Shown here piece after piece: positions 27,961 to 36,347 of a stretch of DNA of 44,770 bases (positions are counted from its first letter, which is position 1; each line of letters starts with the position of its first letter). Source of the DNA: a virus; IMG/VR virus record IMGVR_UViG_3300048041_000020, positions 1 through 44,770 of that record, one strand, 5' to 3'. The notes under the pieces were generated by a model that was given only the letters and a program-made list of their open reading frames with translations, was not told where the DNA came from and did not search any database. A program made the translations under genes and the position numbers.

Positions 27961-28889
27961 TGTGCCTCCGCCGCTGCTGCGTTGATGAGCCAATCAGGTG
28001 CTTCCGCTGTGAAAGCGATCTGAGGCTGTGCGTGCCATTGACCAGTCTCAATCGCTGCCTTCAATTTCGCCGCAGCCATATCCAACCGCTGCTCTGCGAT
28101 CGATAGGAAGGACTGACCAACCTCGTGGACGCTCACTCGATACGGAGCCGTCTTCTCGACAGCCAGGAAATTGAAAGCGTTCATCGGCTTCCCTGTGATC
28201 CGGTGAGCTGCCATCAGATAGAAGGCGGCTTGGACGTAATATAGGTCGTTCACGATCTGCTTTTGAAATGGCTTCTTGAGCGCGTTTCGAGTGGTCTTCA
28301 AATCGGTAAGCATCAGGAGATGGTCCTGATAGATATCGATTCGAACCCGACACCGCAAACCGTTCCAGTTAAAGAACCCGCTCAACTCTCGGCGGCCACC
28401 ATCCAGCAGGATCTTCGCGATCGGATGCTTCGCGATGGAATCGAGCATTCCCGTGATCTGGTCAAGCTCAGTGGTGTCTTCGATGAAGATGGTCCCAGGA
28501 GGTTGGTCGAAGATCCAGTTCTGCTTCTTCACCTTGGCTTCGGCGGACTGAGTCGATGGGCGACCGTCTTTCGTCATCCCAACAAACTCAGGAATTACTT
28601 TGTAGCGCTTCAGGAAGTCAGGTCCCTCGAGGCAAGCCTTGTGGAACATGGTCCCGAACTTCATCGCGTCGCTGACCTTCTTCCCGCCTTTCATTTTCTC
28701 TTCGTAGAGCTTGTCCAGGCCGCCGTCCTCTTCATCGAGGATCGTAACCAGCTGGCCAGAGCTGACTGCTTCGATCGCGTGGTAGGTTTCGTCAGGCAGG
28801 TTCTCTACGAACTTCTCCTCGCTCCACGAACCGATGTATCGTTTAAAGTCCCAAGGTCTTTGATCTGTTAAACTAGTATTACCGCTCAT
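27957..28889 (-). CDS. RecE-like exodeoxyribonuclease VIII (PD-(D/E)XK)
   Basis: The 310-residue protein has the RecE/DUF3799 nuclease pattern: 'AMKFGTMFHKACLEGPDF' (His in the helix), 'ELSGFFNWNGLRCRVRIDIY' (Glu and Asp), 'MLTDLKTTRNA' (Asp-x-Lys) and 'YYVQAAFYLMAAHRI' (QxxxY). It degrades one strand from a duplex end, leaving ssDNA for RecT. Both ends overlap neighbouring genes by 4 bases, so RecE, RecT and the upstream ATPase form a coupled set. Confidence 0.85.
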   Translation of the reverse strand: MSGNTSLTDQRPWDFKRYIGSWSEEKFVENLPDETYHAIEAVSSGQLVTILDEEDGGLDKLYEEKMKGGKKVSDAMKFGTMFHKACLEGPDFLKRYKVIPEFVGMTKDGRPSTQSAEAKVKKQNWIFDQPPGTIFIEDTTELDQITGMLDSIAKHPIAKILLDGGRRELSGFFNWNGLRCRVRIDIYQDHLLMLTDLKTTRNALKKPFQKQIVNDLYYVQAAFYLMAAHRITGKPMNAFNFLAVEKTAPYRVSVHEVGQSFLSIAEQRLDMAAAKLKAAIETGQWHAQPQIAFTAEAPDWLINAAAAEAQ

Positions 28890-30271
28890 TGAATTACCCT
28901 CGCATCTCCGTTTGACATTTCCACCACCGCGTCATCGGTCGCCGTCTTAAATGGCTCCCCGACCTTCGTTATGAAGTAGTTGTACCCGTCTCCTTCGATC
29001 TCAGTTTTGAGCATCGAGTAGCTTACCTCGTCGAGCGCTTCCGCACCGTCGAGGCAGATCACCTTCGTCTTCTTCGCGAGAGCCCGCGCCAATCCGCAGG
29101 CCAGTTTCATCGCTTGGGAAGTCGAAAGATTTTCAACCGGGAATCCTTCGAATAAGAACTTTCCATCGACGTAGCTCAACCCTTGAACCGGCATAGTACC
29201 GCGATTGAGGATCCCAGACCGCAGCACTCGAATCGAATCGATCGTCTCGTCGAGCTTCGAAGCGAATTCCTGGGCTTCCTCGGCTCGCTTCTGCTGCGCG
29301 AATACTCCACTGCGTTGTTGGGTCCATGTTCGGAGAGCTGCGTTCTTCACCTTGTCGGCAGCTATCGCGAGCTTGGCTTGGTTGATTTCATCGAGGCGAG
29401 GTTGGAACGACTCACCAATGACCGTTTCCTGCTTCATATCGACAGCCTTCTGGAGAAGCGTCTGCCGGTGCTGCTTTAGGTTGTTGAGCGTGTTTTCCAT
29501 GTCTGCGATCTCTTTCTCGCAGCGAAGGCATCGCTCTTTAACGTCGTTCAGGTCCTTGACCTTCTGATTGATCTCGCCCTGTTTCTGTTGGATCTGACGA
29601 ATCTCGGCATCGTGCTCGCCAAGCAGTCTATCAGCTTCCGGGTCCGTCACCGTACCGGCTTGAGGTTCATTCGGATTCGATTGCTCTTCTTCGTACTTGT
29701 GGCGAGCTAACTCTTCCTTCGCTTTCCGATTCGCTTCAGCGCGGCGGCCATAGAAGTAATCGTGAAACGAATCGAGAACTTTAAGTCCGTGTTGATTGTA
29801 TTCCATTGGCGGAAGTGCCACCGGAGGGTTGATTTCGCGCACTGCTTGCTCATGGGTGATCTTCACCGGAATGGCTTGCAGGATAGCTTCGACCCGTCGT
29901 TTCGGTTCTAGAAGCTCGAGCGGGTTGAATGCCGACGTATCGAAGAGGCTGTTCAGCAACGTCTGGGGGGCTTTCGCTTCCATCTCGTTTTTAGACGCTC
30001 TCACCGATTGCGTGCCGGTGGAGTTGATCTTCCTGTGAACGCTGAGACCGTCTGAAAATTCCAAGATGATCTCGGCCTGTGTTTCGCCGACCTTCACCAG
30101 GGATCCGTCGGTGCTGCCCTTCAGTCCGATCTCGATTGCTTTGAGAAGGCTCGTCTTGCCGTTGTTATTGGCCCCGACGATCTGGGTGATGTGTTTTGGT
30201 TTGATCTCGACGTCCGAGATTGAAAGAAAGTTTTTAACTCTAAGACTGACTAGGTTGATTCCCTGCTCCAT
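28886..30271 (-). CDS. SbcC/RecF-like AAA (ABC-type) ATPase
   Basis: The ATG at 30271 has AAGGAG 8 bases upstream and gives 461 residues. It has Walker A 'VGANNNGKTS' (32-41), a long coiled coil in the middle ('QKQGEINQKVKDLNDVKERCLRCEKEIADMEN', in parts, with a CxxC zinc-hook-like pair 'CLRC'), the ABC signature-like 'NLSTSQAMKLA' and Walker B 'VICLDGAEAL'. This is the RecF/SMC-type layout used to bind DNA ends. With RecE and RecT it makes a three-gene recombination module. In-frame starts at 30319 or 30334 are weaker. Confidence 0.8.
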   Translation of the reverse strand: MEQGINLVSLRVKNFLSISDVEIKPKHITQIVGANNNGKTSLLKAIEIGLKGSTDGSLVKVGETQAEIILEFSDGLSVHRKINSTGTQSVRASKNEMEAKAPQTLLNSLFDTSAFNPLELLEPKRRVEAILQAIPVKITHEQAVREINPPVALPPMEYNQHGLKVLDSFHDYFYGRRAEANRKAKEELARHKYEEEQSNPNEPQAGTVTDPEADRLLGEHDAEIRQIQQKQGEINQKVKDLNDVKERCLRCEKEIADMENTLNNLKQHRQTLLQKAVDMKQETVIGESFQPRLDEINQAKLAIAADKVKNAALRTWTQQRSGVFAQQKRAEEAQEFASKLDETIDSIRVLRSGILNRGTMPVQGLSYVDGKFLFEGFPVENLSTSQAMKLACGLARALAKKTKVICLDGAEALDEVSYSMLKTEIEGDGYNYFITKVGEPFKTATDDAVVEMSNGDARVIQ

Positions 30272-30302
30272 TTTTGAAGCTCCTTTTTGGATTGATTTCG
30301 TA

Positions 30303-30464
30303 TCACTGGTTAAACTCATTATTCGTAACTGCACAAGTCTTTTTTTCGATTTCCTCCTTATTTTTAAGCGAATTTAGTTCGCAATACATTTCGCAGTCTT
30401 GCGTCGAGATCTCCACGTTCCCAGAGTCGATCAGGATCCTGTAGTTGTGAAACAGGAGTTCCAT
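30303..30464 (-). CDS. Possible small protein, uncertain
   Basis: From an ATG at 30464 the frame codes 53 residues starting 'MELLFHNYRILIDSGNVEIST' and rich in Glu, Asn and Lys later. It overlaps the end of the 86-residue gene at 30364 by about 100 bases and has only a weak GAG upstream. The composition of the non-overlapping part is protein-like, but it may be chance. It is listed so that this 92-bp gap is not taken as empty. Confidence 0.3.
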   Translation of the reverse strand: MELLFHNYRILIDSGNVEISTQDCEMYCELNSLKNKEEIEKKTCAVTNNEFNQ

Positions 30465-32516: not shown

Positions 32517-32592
32517 TGGAGCGCCGGGGTCGGACTTGAACCGCCTACTCCCTAGTGGAACTAGGGCGCATCGTCGCTTCTGCTTCCGGCGC
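32517..32592 (-). tRNA. tRNA-Gly (anticodon TCC), with degenerate D and T arms
   Basis: The 76-nt sequence, with encoded CCA, has a perfect 7-bp acceptor (GCGCCGG/CCGGCGC), discriminator T (as in tRNA-Gly), and a perfect anticodon arm (CCCTA-GTTCCAC-TAGGG, anticodon TCC, T33 present). The D arm is poor (no T8, 3-bp stem, no GG in the loop). The T arm forms only with a bulged A (GGCGG-TTCAAGT-CCGACC). Its first 32 nt overlap the 3' end of the Mom-like gene, whose stop lies in the anticodon stem. It could be functional or decaying. Confidence 0.7.
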
Positions 32593-33250
32593 ACTTCTGC
32601 CCTTTATACATGCTCGCACCCATTTCCGCTATTTTTGAAAATGGAATTATTGGGACAGCAAGTCGAGATTTCGCTTCCTCATGCAGAAAGTACATATAGC
32701 GGAGCTGCCACCCAGGGAGTGGCGCAGATCCTTCTGGTATTTTATAGGACCCGCCGTTTTTCAACACTAGGGCGACGTTATTGAGCGTTTTTCTCGCCAC
32801 GATAGTCCCGTCTGCCAATTTCAAAAGAGTTTTATTTTTATTAATTCCAGTGAGGACGAAACCACTCGCCCGATAGATCGTCCCGTCACCGCATTGAGTG
32901 CCATCAGCGTAGGAGATCACCCACTGAATATGTGGATAGCTTTTTTTGATCATTCGCATCGCTACCCCCAACGCACGAGATTCGCTATTTCTCGGGAGTT
33001 TTGGGCCAAAAGCCATGCGATTCAATTCTAAGAATCCATTCCACGGGGTACCCGGAACGAGTCCAAGCGATTTGTTTTTGTCCATCGATGGTCCGAAGCT
33101 CATCACCCCTTCGGCAGCTCCATCGAGAAACACTCCGAGGTGAAGCTGCGAATTTGGAACCACCTTGCCGCTATAGTGGTGAGCCTTCACGATCAGCTTG
33201 GCATCCTGGGAAGAAATTGGATGGACTCTTATGTCCTTGGCTTCAGGCAT
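32561..33250 (-). CDS. mom: Mom-like DNA modification protein (GNAT fold)
   Basis: The 229-residue protein matches the Mom family of phage Mu: 'IVKAHHYSGKVVPNSQLHLGVFLDGAAEGVMSFG' (in parts), 'GTPWNGFLELNRMAF', 'LPRNSESRALGVAMRMIKK' and 'SYADGTQCGDGTIYRASGF'. Mu Mom converts adenine to N6-carbamoylmethyl-adenine and blocks many restriction enzymes. The residues 'LELNRMAF' and 'GTIYRASGF' are the family's most conserved parts. It overlaps the ParB-like stop. The last 11 residues are encoded by tRNA-Gly sequence, so the C-terminus is probably unconstrained. Confidence 0.8.
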   Translation of the reverse strand: MPEAKDIRVHPISSQDAKLIVKAHHYSGKVVPNSQLHLGVFLDGAAEGVMSFGPSMDKNKSLGLVPGTPWNGFLELNRMAFGPKLPRNSESRALGVAMRMIKKSYPHIQWVISYADGTQCGDGTIYRASGFVLTGINKNKTLLKLADGTIVARKTLNNVALVLKNGGSYKIPEGSAPLPGWQLRYMYFLHEEAKSRLAVPIIPFSKIAEMGASMYKGQKCAGSRSDDAP

Positions 33251-34665: not shown

Positions 34666-34893
34666 ATGAGCACTCGCTACATCGATCGCATTTTAAACTC
34701 TGAACCATTTATCCCCGAGGACTACGACCCCGCCGAGGATCTATTCGTGCATCCTGGGTCGCCCTACAAGCGACAAACGCCGATTCCCAAGGCTGAGATG
34801 GCTGCGATCGAGAGAGGCATCAGAGAGAGAAAGTGTGCGCGTCTCCGACTTTGGAGAGCTGAAAAGAAAAAGGCCCAATCCCCAACGGACTGA
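34666..34893 (+). CDS. Rightward small basic protein, unassigned
   Basis: The 75-residue product begins 'MSTRYIDRILNSEPFIPEDYDP' and ends in a strongly basic helix ('AAIERGIRERKCARLRLWRAEKKKAQ'). It may bind nucleic acid. The start is preceded by the GGTTGAAA repeats and lacks a ribosome site. The stop codon lies inside the terminator hairpin at 34869-34899, where this gene converges with the leftward gene at 34925. Confidence 0.55.
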   Translation: MSTRYIDRILNSEPFIPEDYDPAEDLFVHPGSPYKRQTPIPKAEMAAIERGIRERKCARLRLWRAEKKKAQSPTD

Positions 34894-34899
34894 GCCTTT
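34862..34899 (-). terminator. Intrinsic terminator of the late leftward transcript
   Basis: On the leftward strand a 13-bp stem (AAAGGC... with two G-U pairs) and a 5-nt loop are followed by TTTTTCTTTTC. On the + strand the two G-U pairs become mismatches and the T run is shorter, so it is better as a terminator for leftward transcripts, ending the last late gene at 34925. It could act weakly in both directions between convergent genes. Confidence 0.8.
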
Positions 34900-34924: not shown

Positions 34925-35338
34925 TTAATTATACAGAGGGTCGATTACAATTTCACCCAGCACCTGGGTCGCGTCCAAGGCCTCAACGGAAATACGAACG
35001 CTGCCCGACATGGTGATCGGTACATAGATCGGATTACCGCCAGCGGCGGATTGAATATACGCTTGCGCGACTTCAGTTCCTGCCGATGCCGAAGATGCCG
35101 CAATACCGATAGCGAGATCGCCGTAAGCTGCCGCCACGTTAGCGGTGCTGTAAATCAGCAATCCCTTCACTGCTTTGGTGGTTGAGGTGATTACCGGAAC
35201 CCAAGCAGAGGTGGTGATGTTGGTCGTTGCACACTTCACTCGACCTGGGGTCGCTGACGATGAAATTGCGAATGCATCTGGCATTACCGCCAGCGAAGCC
35301 ATAACTAACGCGGTCAAAAATACACAAAAATGTCTCAT
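34925..35338 (-). CDS. Secreted hypothetical protein with signal peptide
   Basis: The ATG at 35338 has AGGAG 5-6 bases upstream and gives 137 residues. 'MRHFCVFLTALVMASLAVMPDAFA' is a classical Sec signal peptide with an AFA cleavage site. The mature part ('ISSSATPGRVKCATTNITTSAW...') is Ala/Ser/Thr-rich and beta-like, resembling a small fibre or surface protein. It is the last gene of the late block, between the tRNA-like gene and the terminator. No family is recognised. Confidence 0.65.
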   Translation of the reverse strand: MRHFCVFLTALVMASLAVMPDAFAISSSATPGRVKCATTNITTSAWVPVITSTTKAVKGLLIYSTANVAAAYGDLAIGIAASSASAGTEVAQAYIQSAAGGNPIYVPITMSGSVRISVEALDATQVLGEIVIDPLYN

Positions 35339-35389
35339 AAATTCTCCTATAGGTTGAAACCAGACTATCACGATCTCGATCTAAATCAA

Positions 35390-35477
35390 TGGTGCCGCGA
35401 GTGGGATTCGGACCCACGACCTCCACAGGGGAGTTACACCCGTCAATGCGGTGCTCTAGCCACTGAGCTATCGCGGC
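35390..35477 (-). tRNA. tRNA-Val-like gene (GAC) with 12-nt insertion in the anticodon loop
   Basis: The 88-nt sequence has encoded CCA, a perfect acceptor (GCCGCGA/TCGCGGC), a canonical D arm (TA-GCTC-AGTGGCTA-GAGC), a canonical T arm (GTGGG-TCCGAAT-CCCAC), A73 and a 5-nt variable loop. The anticodon stem CCGCA/TGTGG pairs, but its loop has 19 nt instead of 7: TTGAC then GGGTGTAACTCCC then C. With T33 in place the anticodon is GAC (Val), and the extra 12 nt fall just after position 37, the canonical intron site. A class II fold with a long variable arm puts A at position 33, so it is less likely. Confidence 0.75.
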
Positions 35478-35489
35478 TAGACAATGATC

Positions 35490-35567
35490 TCATGGTGCGT
35501 GGGATGACCATACCCAAATCATTAGGCCGGCCAGAATGAAGTACGTGAACCAGAAATAACGCATCAT
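35490..35567 (-). CDS. Tiny membrane peptide (25 residues)
   Basis: An ATG-ATG pair overlapping the lipoprotein stop opens a frame coding 'MMRYFWFTYFILAGLMIWVW' plus a five-residue tail. It is essentially one transmembrane helix. Tiny membrane peptides beside lipoproteins occur in phage lysis regions, but this one is too short for confident calling. The coupling to the upstream gene (ATGATG across the stop) supports it. Confidence 0.4.
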   Translation of the reverse strand: MMRYFWFTYFILAGLMIWVWSSHAP

Positions 35568-36004
35568 TGCAGCTTGAAGTCCTTTGCACGCTGACCGTGA
35601 GCAAGCATCTTCTCGAGCCCGATCTCGAGGAACTTGACCGCAGTTTTCTGCTCCTGGGTACAGGGATACTTCGAACAGAGCTTCTCAATCGAGGCTTTGA
35701 TCTCGGATAGGGAACCGGAGTCAGTGCACTCTACGGCCTTCCCTGCGGCCTGCCAGGTCGCTATCTGGGCATCCCAACCTTCGGCATCCAGGAGAGCTGG
35801 AGTTGACGTGAGAAAGTTGTCACAAGCCGAGCCACGGTTAATTTCGCACTTGGCTTCAATGCCCGGCACTTGGTTGTTGGTGATCTCGCATCGGTCGGAC
35901 GCGATCGAAGGAATTGGAGAGCAGGACCGAAAGTCCGGCACCGCTACGGCGCATCCACTACTGAGTAGAGCTAGTACCACCGTCGTCTTTAATAAGAGCA
36001 GCAT
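35564..36004 (-). CDS. Cys-rich lipoprotein
   Basis: From the ATG at 36004 the product has 146 residues with a lipoprotein signal: 'MLLLLKTTVVLALLSSGC', lipobox LSSGC. The mature part has seven further cysteines ('SCSP', 'RCE', 'KCE', 'ACD', 'ECT', 'LCSK', 'PCT') and a helical C-terminus. It should be lipidated and face the periplasm, as outer-membrane spanins do, though it is long and lacks the Pro-rich spanin pattern. An in-frame ATG at 36049 would add a basic N-region; neither start has a clear ribosome site. Confidence 0.6.
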   Translation of the reverse strand: MLLLLKTTVVLALLSSGCAVAVPDFRSCSPIPSIASDRCEITNNQVPGIEAKCEINRGSACDNFLTSTPALLDAEGWDAQIATWQAAGKAVECTDSGSLSEIKASIEKLCSKYPCTQEQKTAVKFLEIGLEKMLAHGQRAKDFKLQ

Positions 36005-36347
36005 TTGCAACGGTGTACGCTTGAAGGGCTGTTTGGATCGCACTGGCATTACCTGATTGTTCTGCCGCGATGAGGTTTTGAAGCGCTTGAGACATTTGCT
36101 GCTGCTCCACACCAGTTTGAACGTCGATCACGGCGAACGTCGTCCCGGTCTGAGCGACCTTTGAAAAGAGTGATCCGAAGTAGTTTGCAGCACCTTCCCA
36201 GAGCTGTTTGATCACTGGGAGTCCAAGCCAAGGAACGTCTGCTATCGCGATGGCTTCCGCTGCTTTGATAACAGCGGTGATCGCGGCACCTTCAGCGTCG
36301 TCGATGACTGTGGCTATGGGATTGGATGGGGTGGGGGTAGTGCTCAT
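35958..36347 (-). CDS. Ala-rich hypothetical protein, possibly membrane-interacting
   Basis: The 129-residue product is Ala/Ile/Val-rich with amphipathic stretches ('ITAVIKAAEAIAIADVPWLGLPVIKQLWEGAANYFGSLFSK', in parts) and a 'TTFAVIDVQTGVEQQQMSQAL' helix. It could associate with membranes and be involved in lysis or virion structure. It is preceded by a 15-bp hairpin and has no ribosome site. It overlaps the lipoprotein gene. No family is recognised. Confidence 0.55.
   Translation of the reverse strand: MSTTPTPSNPIATVIDDAEGAAITAVIKAAEAIAIADVPWLGLPVIKQLWEGAANYFGSLFSKVAQTGTTFAVIDVQTGVEQQQMSQALQNLIAAEQSGNASAIQTALQAYTVANAALIKDDGGTSSTQ

Follow-up and report, generated by a model that had tools for sequence, protein, structure and literature searches.

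Two explanations are usual for phage tRNA genes, codon supply and the replacement of tRNAs cut by host defences, and both require a readable anticodon. The viral contig analysed here, of 44,770 nt in full (hereafter, the window), carries a single tRNA gene, at 35390-35477 on the minus strand, whose anticodon loop has 19 nt, versus 7 in the structure of class I tRNAs. We asked what kind of gene this is. The answer that we tentatively prefer, with a little less than even confidence, is that it encodes a phage tRNA mimic that takes no part in decoding and instead competes for, or serves as a decoy to, enzymes acting on or attacking tRNAs.

A class I tRNA gene with a 19-nt anticodon loop

A preliminary description of the gene (minus-strand sequence, GCCGCGAUAGCUCAGUGGCUAGAGCACCGCAUUGACGGGUGUAACUCCCCUGUGGAGGUCGUGGGUCCGAAUCCCACUCGCGGCACCA) reported canonical class I arms, a paired anticodon stem, an encoded CCA and the 19-nt loop at these coordinates and on this strand. 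All of this held in our analysis: every stem is fully paired and CCA is encoded (Table 1), and in the covariance-model comparison suggested with that description the Rfam tRNA model RF00005 matched the gene with 58.0 bits (E 4.4e-10), placing the insert in the anticodon loop. The start of the T-loop is also found in two Bdellovibrionota tRNAs (L210 and L214).

For the class assignment, we used a class I model (R2), built from 17 phage tRNAs that were not picked for their resemblance to the window tRNA, and a class II model (R1), built from 17 Ser, Leu and Tyr tRNAs from three bacterial genomes. The window tRNA scored 60.6 bits on R2 (E 1.5e-16) and 42.2 bits on R1. On the same models, true class II tRNAs scored about 57-81 bits with R1 and 27-42 with R2, and ordinary class I tRNAs mostly 50-77 bits with R2 and about 25-56 with R1. 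The gene is a class I tRNA despite its insert, and the class II model, whose better score had been named beforehand as evidence against this assignment, gave the lower value.

Table 1. Features of the tRNA-like gene and of its immediate surroundings in the window
Feature	Position	Strand	Remarks
tRNA-like gene, class I	35390..35477	-	88 nt, encoded CCA included
Acceptor stem, 5' side, GCCGCGA	35471..35477	-	7/7 pairs with 35394-35400
D-arm, GCUC-AGUGGCUA-GAGC	35453..35468	-	4 bp (4/4); 8-nt loop with GG
Anticodon stem, 5' side, CCGCA	35447..35451	-	
Anticodon loop, 19 nt, UUGACGGGUGUAACUCCCC	35428..35446	-	U33 present; inner GGG/CCC stem possible
GAC (Val) at the anticodon position	35442..35444	-	loop read from its 5' side
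12 nt whose omission gives a 7-nt loop, GGUGUAACUCCC	35429..35440	-	one of several equivalent placements
Anticodon stem, 3' side, UGUGG	35423..35427	-	5/5 pairs, one G-U
Variable loop, class I, AGGUC	35418..35422	-	5 nt
T-arm, GUGGG-UCCGAAU-CCCAC	35401..35417	-	T stem 5/5; C at position 55
Discriminator A (A73) and encoded CCA	35390..35393	-	
Small protein gene downstream of the tRNA	34925..35339	-	signal-peptide-like start; ATG at 35339; ribosome site GGAG
Intrinsic-terminator-like hairpin	34869..34899	-	ends a unit that would include the tRNA
Gene upstream of the tRNA, codirectional	35564..36112	-	no family match

The preliminary description had also proposed that 12 nt between positions 37 and 38 could be removed. 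ARAGORN in intron mode agrees, returning a tRNA-Val(gac) with a 7-nt loop, but the insertion point is not unique: the sequence of the 19-nt loop does not fix it, and 37/38 is merely the most tRNA-like placement. In the main genes of the phage, GUC and GUU make up 55% of the Val codons. Since its anticodon loop has 19 nt rather than 7, the window tRNA as encoded is probably unable to read codons. Decoding is implausible with the enlarged loop, and a non-decoding tRNA or a decoy, both suggested earlier, are possible readings.

Folded without constraints, the RNA adopts a rearranged minimum-energy structure (-37.1 kcal/mol) in which the D-arm is broken, versus -34.4 kcal/mol for the cloverleaf with the inner GGG/CCC stem. 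The 19-nt loop is by itself no more structured than shuffled loops (P 0.63), and its being a specially stable hairpin is not supported.

Genome, likely host and neighbouring genes

The first and last 199 nt of the contig are identical at 198 positions, and this near-identical end repeat indicates that the genome is probably complete. Its genes include those for a contractile tail, a terminase, a portal and a helicase, as well as a Mom-like gene. The major head protein shares 57% identity with that of Bdellovibrio phage phi1422, with further matches to two contigs, binned respectively with a Leptospiraceae and a Paraglaciecola MAG, and to a Bdellovibrio MAG; from these matches, we consider that the phage is related to Bdellovibrio phages and that a Bdellovibrionota host is likely, although not proved.

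The tRNA lies in an intergenic gap, codirectional with the surrounding genes and about 50 nt ahead of the small secreted-type protein gene, the open reading frame of which was listed from a GTG at 35371; its product showed no family match and no relative in the viral contigs searched (viral_contigs). Also on the minus strand of the window are the Mom-like DNA modification gene (32561-33250), which adjoins a gene with weak ParB/methyltransferase similarity, and a gene for a 482-aa AAA/SbcC-like ATPase (28886-30334; phrog_1499) that is weakly similar to defence ATPases such as AriA, GajA and OLD. Among nine phages with related head proteins, the head-tail genes are kept and nothing is kept from 34.9 to 38.1 kb, the region of the tRNA; these relatives contain other tRNAs, such as tRNA-Asn in G018 and G020 and tRNA-Pro in phi1422, or none.

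Copies and a parent gene

In viral_contigs, we retrieved neither exact copies of the loop region nor near copies consisting of the 5' and 3' halves with 0-30 nt between them, and a stricter two-half pattern found nothing in genome_contigs. Likewise, the intact 88-mer produced no match by BLAST (E 1e-5) in 291 Bdellovibrionota genomes. With a 76-nt query, from which the loop was cut, the nearest sequences in Bdellovibrionota genomes were class I Thr, Ala, Phe and Gly tRNAs, 71-81% identical over most of the length, together with short exact pieces, and no unbroken parent tRNA appeared among the sampled Bdellovibrionota. Synteny led no further: the small protein neighbour had no relatives, the Mom neighbour led to unrelated phages only, and in the relatives found through the head protein the head-tail module is conserved and the neighbourhood of the tRNA is not. 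A search for the same insertion in tRNAs of related phages, proposed in the preliminary description, thus found no relative carrying the window tRNA; nor were there, in consequence, the decayed remnants in relatives that would have spoken against it. Phage phi1422 does contain, at L088:14861-14934, a degenerate tRNA-like piece with a long anticodon arm and no acceptor pairing, adjoining its tRNA-Pro(TGG).

Viral tRNAs with rebuilt anticodon arms

We surveyed viral contigs with a pattern that fixed the class I consensus of the D-arm and T-arm, allowed 4-24 extra nt between them and left the acceptor unconstrained. At least 120 stretches matched, of which 80 loci were listed, a set that comprises aberrant tRNAs of several kinds, some of them from related contigs; nearly the same pattern gave no match in the 291 Bdellovibrionota genomes. 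The acceptor was paired at 7/7 positions in 60 of the 80 listed matches, with 1.8 expected on shuffling, and the anticodon stem at 5/5 positions in 21 (2.7 expected). After removal of duplicates from the listed matches, perfect acceptors amounted to 50/70 (71%), versus 51/66 (77%) for ordinary tRNAs of the same contigs.

Some of the listed matches have a normal anticodon arm with an unusually long variable arm, and others have loops of 11-32 nt or anticodon arms that are wholly replaced; in many, a perfect anticodon stem closes a loop of 11-32 nt, often forming an elongated hairpin. The enlarged loops fold better than their own shuffles (40 aberrant arms, some from related rows; KS p 2.7e-6), and those of the other listed viral tRNAs share no common site or sequence. 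L253:4522-4943 contains five paralogous tRNA genes in a row; the anticodon loop is enlarged in four of them, and the fifth is a normal tRNA-Pro. All five have a 7/7 acceptor and a 5/5 anticodon stem, with compensatory changes at acceptor pairs 2-71, 6-67 and 7-66.

Searching for TTGAC at the anticodon position, followed by an enlarged 3' part, retrieved 16 stretches. Two of the sites, the closest parallels to the window gene, carry genuine tRNA-like genes: one is L374, on a contig of 176 kb, and the other L378/L381, on one contig and apparently one place. With the class I model, L374 and L378 gave 51.7 and 51.0 bits, respectively, and with the class II model 37.5 and 24.6; in both of them the TTGAC segment is predicted to fold into a longer hairpin. 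Because it lies within this hairpin, GAC would not be an exposed anticodon in either, which weakens the reading of the window gene as a Val tRNA with an intron; its GAC anticodon plus intron may be an accident of position.

Other viral tRNA-like genes came up alongside these. A series of viral Gly(TCC), Val(TAC) or Asn(GTT) tRNAs (L220, L257, L264, L267; L250, L284, L291, L296; L221, L222, L248, L285, L290) have normal anticodon arms and class-II-like variable arms of 15-18 nt. A tRNA-like gene family present in 93-99-kb plasmid or phage contigs (L266, L275, L237 and L286/L341, comprising Streptomyces plasmid pS1D4-14.2 and its relatives) is marked by a long anticodon arm, GAGCGCG...CGCGCTC. 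In phages of Pseudomonas aeruginosa and in phage-like plasmids (L339, L340, L342, L343, L345-L353; the L249 family), there is a conserved intergenic RNA module formed by a hairpin, CCTGGC...GCCAGG, and then a clamp, GAGTGGTCT/AGACCACTC, the interior of which is exchanged between phages: some interiors resemble a tRNA, scoring 43-45 bits against RF00005 and having an anticodon region of about 31 nt, and others are unrelated cores with no Rfam match. In Itty13 (L344), the tRNA-like element is present and the clamp is different. This module gives the impression of a structured phage RNA whose core can be exchanged.

A possible non-decoding mimic or a recently disabled tRNA

As a non-decoding mimic, the window gene would be a class I tRNA gene with a remodelled anticodon arm that no longer presents a 7-nt anticodon loop. 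Its position suggests that it would be transcribed together with the surrounding codirectional genes, and the RNA would presumably be trimmed by the tRNA maturation enzymes of the host. Through its normal acceptor-T half it could then contact enzymes that recognise tRNAs by that half; because proper entry into translation would be impossible, the mimic would act outside decoding. Its most economical role would be that of a competitor or decoy, with host anticodon nucleases, modification enzymes or synthetases as putative targets.

This mimic reading is favoured because all the arms of the gene are intact and the class I model clearly outscores the class II model. It is also favoured by the compensatory changes in the L253 array, the enlarged loops of L374 and L378, and the extra helices, beyond those of shuffles, in other viral tRNAs. 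At the level of the group, it is supported by the listed viral tRNAs with rebuilt anticodon arms, because they keep acceptor stems like those of ordinary phage tRNAs. Against it count that no relative carries the window tRNA and that its own loop is no more structured than shuffles, with a predicted ensemble that prefers the rearranged fold; no partner gene or defence target for the mimic was identified.

The main rival, which we regard as a serious possibility although short of probable, is that 12 nt inserted into the anticodon loop recently disabled a class I phage tRNA that had been normal (Val-GAC or some other), the rest of the gene not having decayed so far. Such a pseudogene is favoured by the single copy with no conserved relative and by a loop that is not specially structured; besides, tRNAs occur sporadically in this phage group, and the clearly degenerate piece in phi1422, which lacks an acceptor stem, is a further point in its favour. 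However, the four stems and CCA of the window gene are intact, listed viral tRNAs of this type are no more decayed in their acceptors than ordinary ones, and the sampled Bdellovibrionota provided no unbroken parent, only the Thr, Ala, Phe and Gly tRNAs mentioned above. For the single copy in the window, a recent pseudogene is nearly as likely as a mimic, because no homologue was found from which to gauge selection.

The mimic reading can be extended to the group. Rather than being plain junk, similar viral tRNAs may form a neglected group of mimics that do not decode. We consider speculative and rather unlikely the stronger proposal that the window gene belongs to a scattered, largely unnamed set of phage-borne class I tRNA mimics, in which the anticodon arm is rebuilt or elongated and the acceptor-T half fully preserved, and which are maintained because they serve as decoys for, or regulators of, the host enzymes that target tRNAs. 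If true, there would be a group of phage tRNAs that keep everything but a usable anticodon loop, which would imply roles outside decoding. The interest of the window tRNA lies mainly in this neglected group. Such genes are mislabelled by standard tools (the window gene, as a tRNA-Ser), can be found by a simple pattern search and could be tested in cultured phages.

Known systems resemble the window gene in part. With ordinary phage class I tRNA genes (RF00005) it has in common the acceptor, D, T and anticodon stems, the class I variable loop and the encoded CCA, and it differs from them in its 19-nt loop, instead of 7 nt, and in having no close parent gene that we could find. Changes in the anticodon loop of phage tRNAs have been linked to the evasion of tRNA-cutting defences (van den Berg 2023, PMC10264068); those tRNAs are likewise phage-borne and altered in the anticodon loop, but they keep a decoding loop, whereas that of the window tRNA is too large to decode. 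The pseudo-tRNA tRNAOther of Bacillus cereus has a role outside translation (PMC3399842), as we propose by analogy for the window gene; it borders a chromosomal island and has a Trp anticodon that is recognised, and the likeness may be one without homology. We found no description of large anticodon-loop insertions in phage tRNAs in the open-access papers searched.

Splicing, frameshifting and other readings

It is very improbable that the gene encodes a tRNA-Val(GAC) whose 12-nt insert is removed by a protein enzyme, as a minimal intron of the archaeal style carried by a bacterial virus. The canonical 37/38 site can accommodate the insert, as in archaeal and eukaryal intron-containing tRNAs, its removal yields a good tRNA-Val(GAC), and the sampled Bdellovibrionota genomes encode the RtcB ligase in 21 of 97 cases. 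Nevertheless, unlike in those tRNAs, no bulge-helix-bulge could be drawn in the window tRNA, which offers only an outer stem, a 5/1 internal loop and a 3-bp inner stem. The tRNA splicing endonuclease (EndA type, PF01974) was found in 0/97 genomes of Bdellovibrionota, the likely host phylum, with positive archaeal controls, and likewise in none of the window proteins scanned with Pfam. The enlarged loops of other viral tRNAs, among the matches listed, likewise have no site or sequence in common. A protein-spliced intron was thus set aside, on account of the missing motif and endonuclease, and with it the earlier idea of an intron-like processed site.

Equally improbable is a decoding tRNA that works with its large loop and causes frameshifting or hopping, which had also been suggested before. 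A single additional base in the loop, or a few, can make a tRNA shift the frame (PMC7803779). The 12 extra bases found here far exceed those of characterised shifting tRNAs, and no programmed-shift gene pair was noticed in the window in a look that was not systematic; this idea is less likely.

We give even less credence to a class II tRNA-Ser(UGA) with a long variable arm. ARAGORN in its default mode does call a tRNA-Ser(tga) with such an arm, and CUCC and GGAG are able to pair as a variable arm and do so in the minimum-energy fold; however, this reading leaves two mismatches inside the anticodon stem, the R1 score is at the level of ordinary class I tRNAs and under that of real class II tRNAs, the R2 score is high, and the D-arm, A73 and the AGGUC variable loop point to class I or away from Ser. 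The call is wrong in view of the class I and class II scores, and the reading was rejected because its R1 score is too low and because no fully paired anticodon stem with a 7-nt loop can be combined with a long variable arm.

That the gene is an attachment site or a tRNA connected with lysogeny is hardly credible, and the reading was set aside, because the Phage_integrase domain (PF00589) had no match in the window or in eight IMG/VR head-protein relatives, with a positive control, and because the genome, with its end repeat, appears complete, even though in a helicase-gene relative (L002/G001) a 3' tRNA piece lies next to a tyrosine integrase and tRNA-dependent lysogeny has been described (PMC10865867). 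That form of lysogeny resembles our case in that the phage encodes a tRNA, but it needs an intact tRNA and an integrase, and the window phage has no intact tRNA and no PF00589 match. The tRNA piece of G001, at L085:1501-1558, is probably the attP of a temperate relative.
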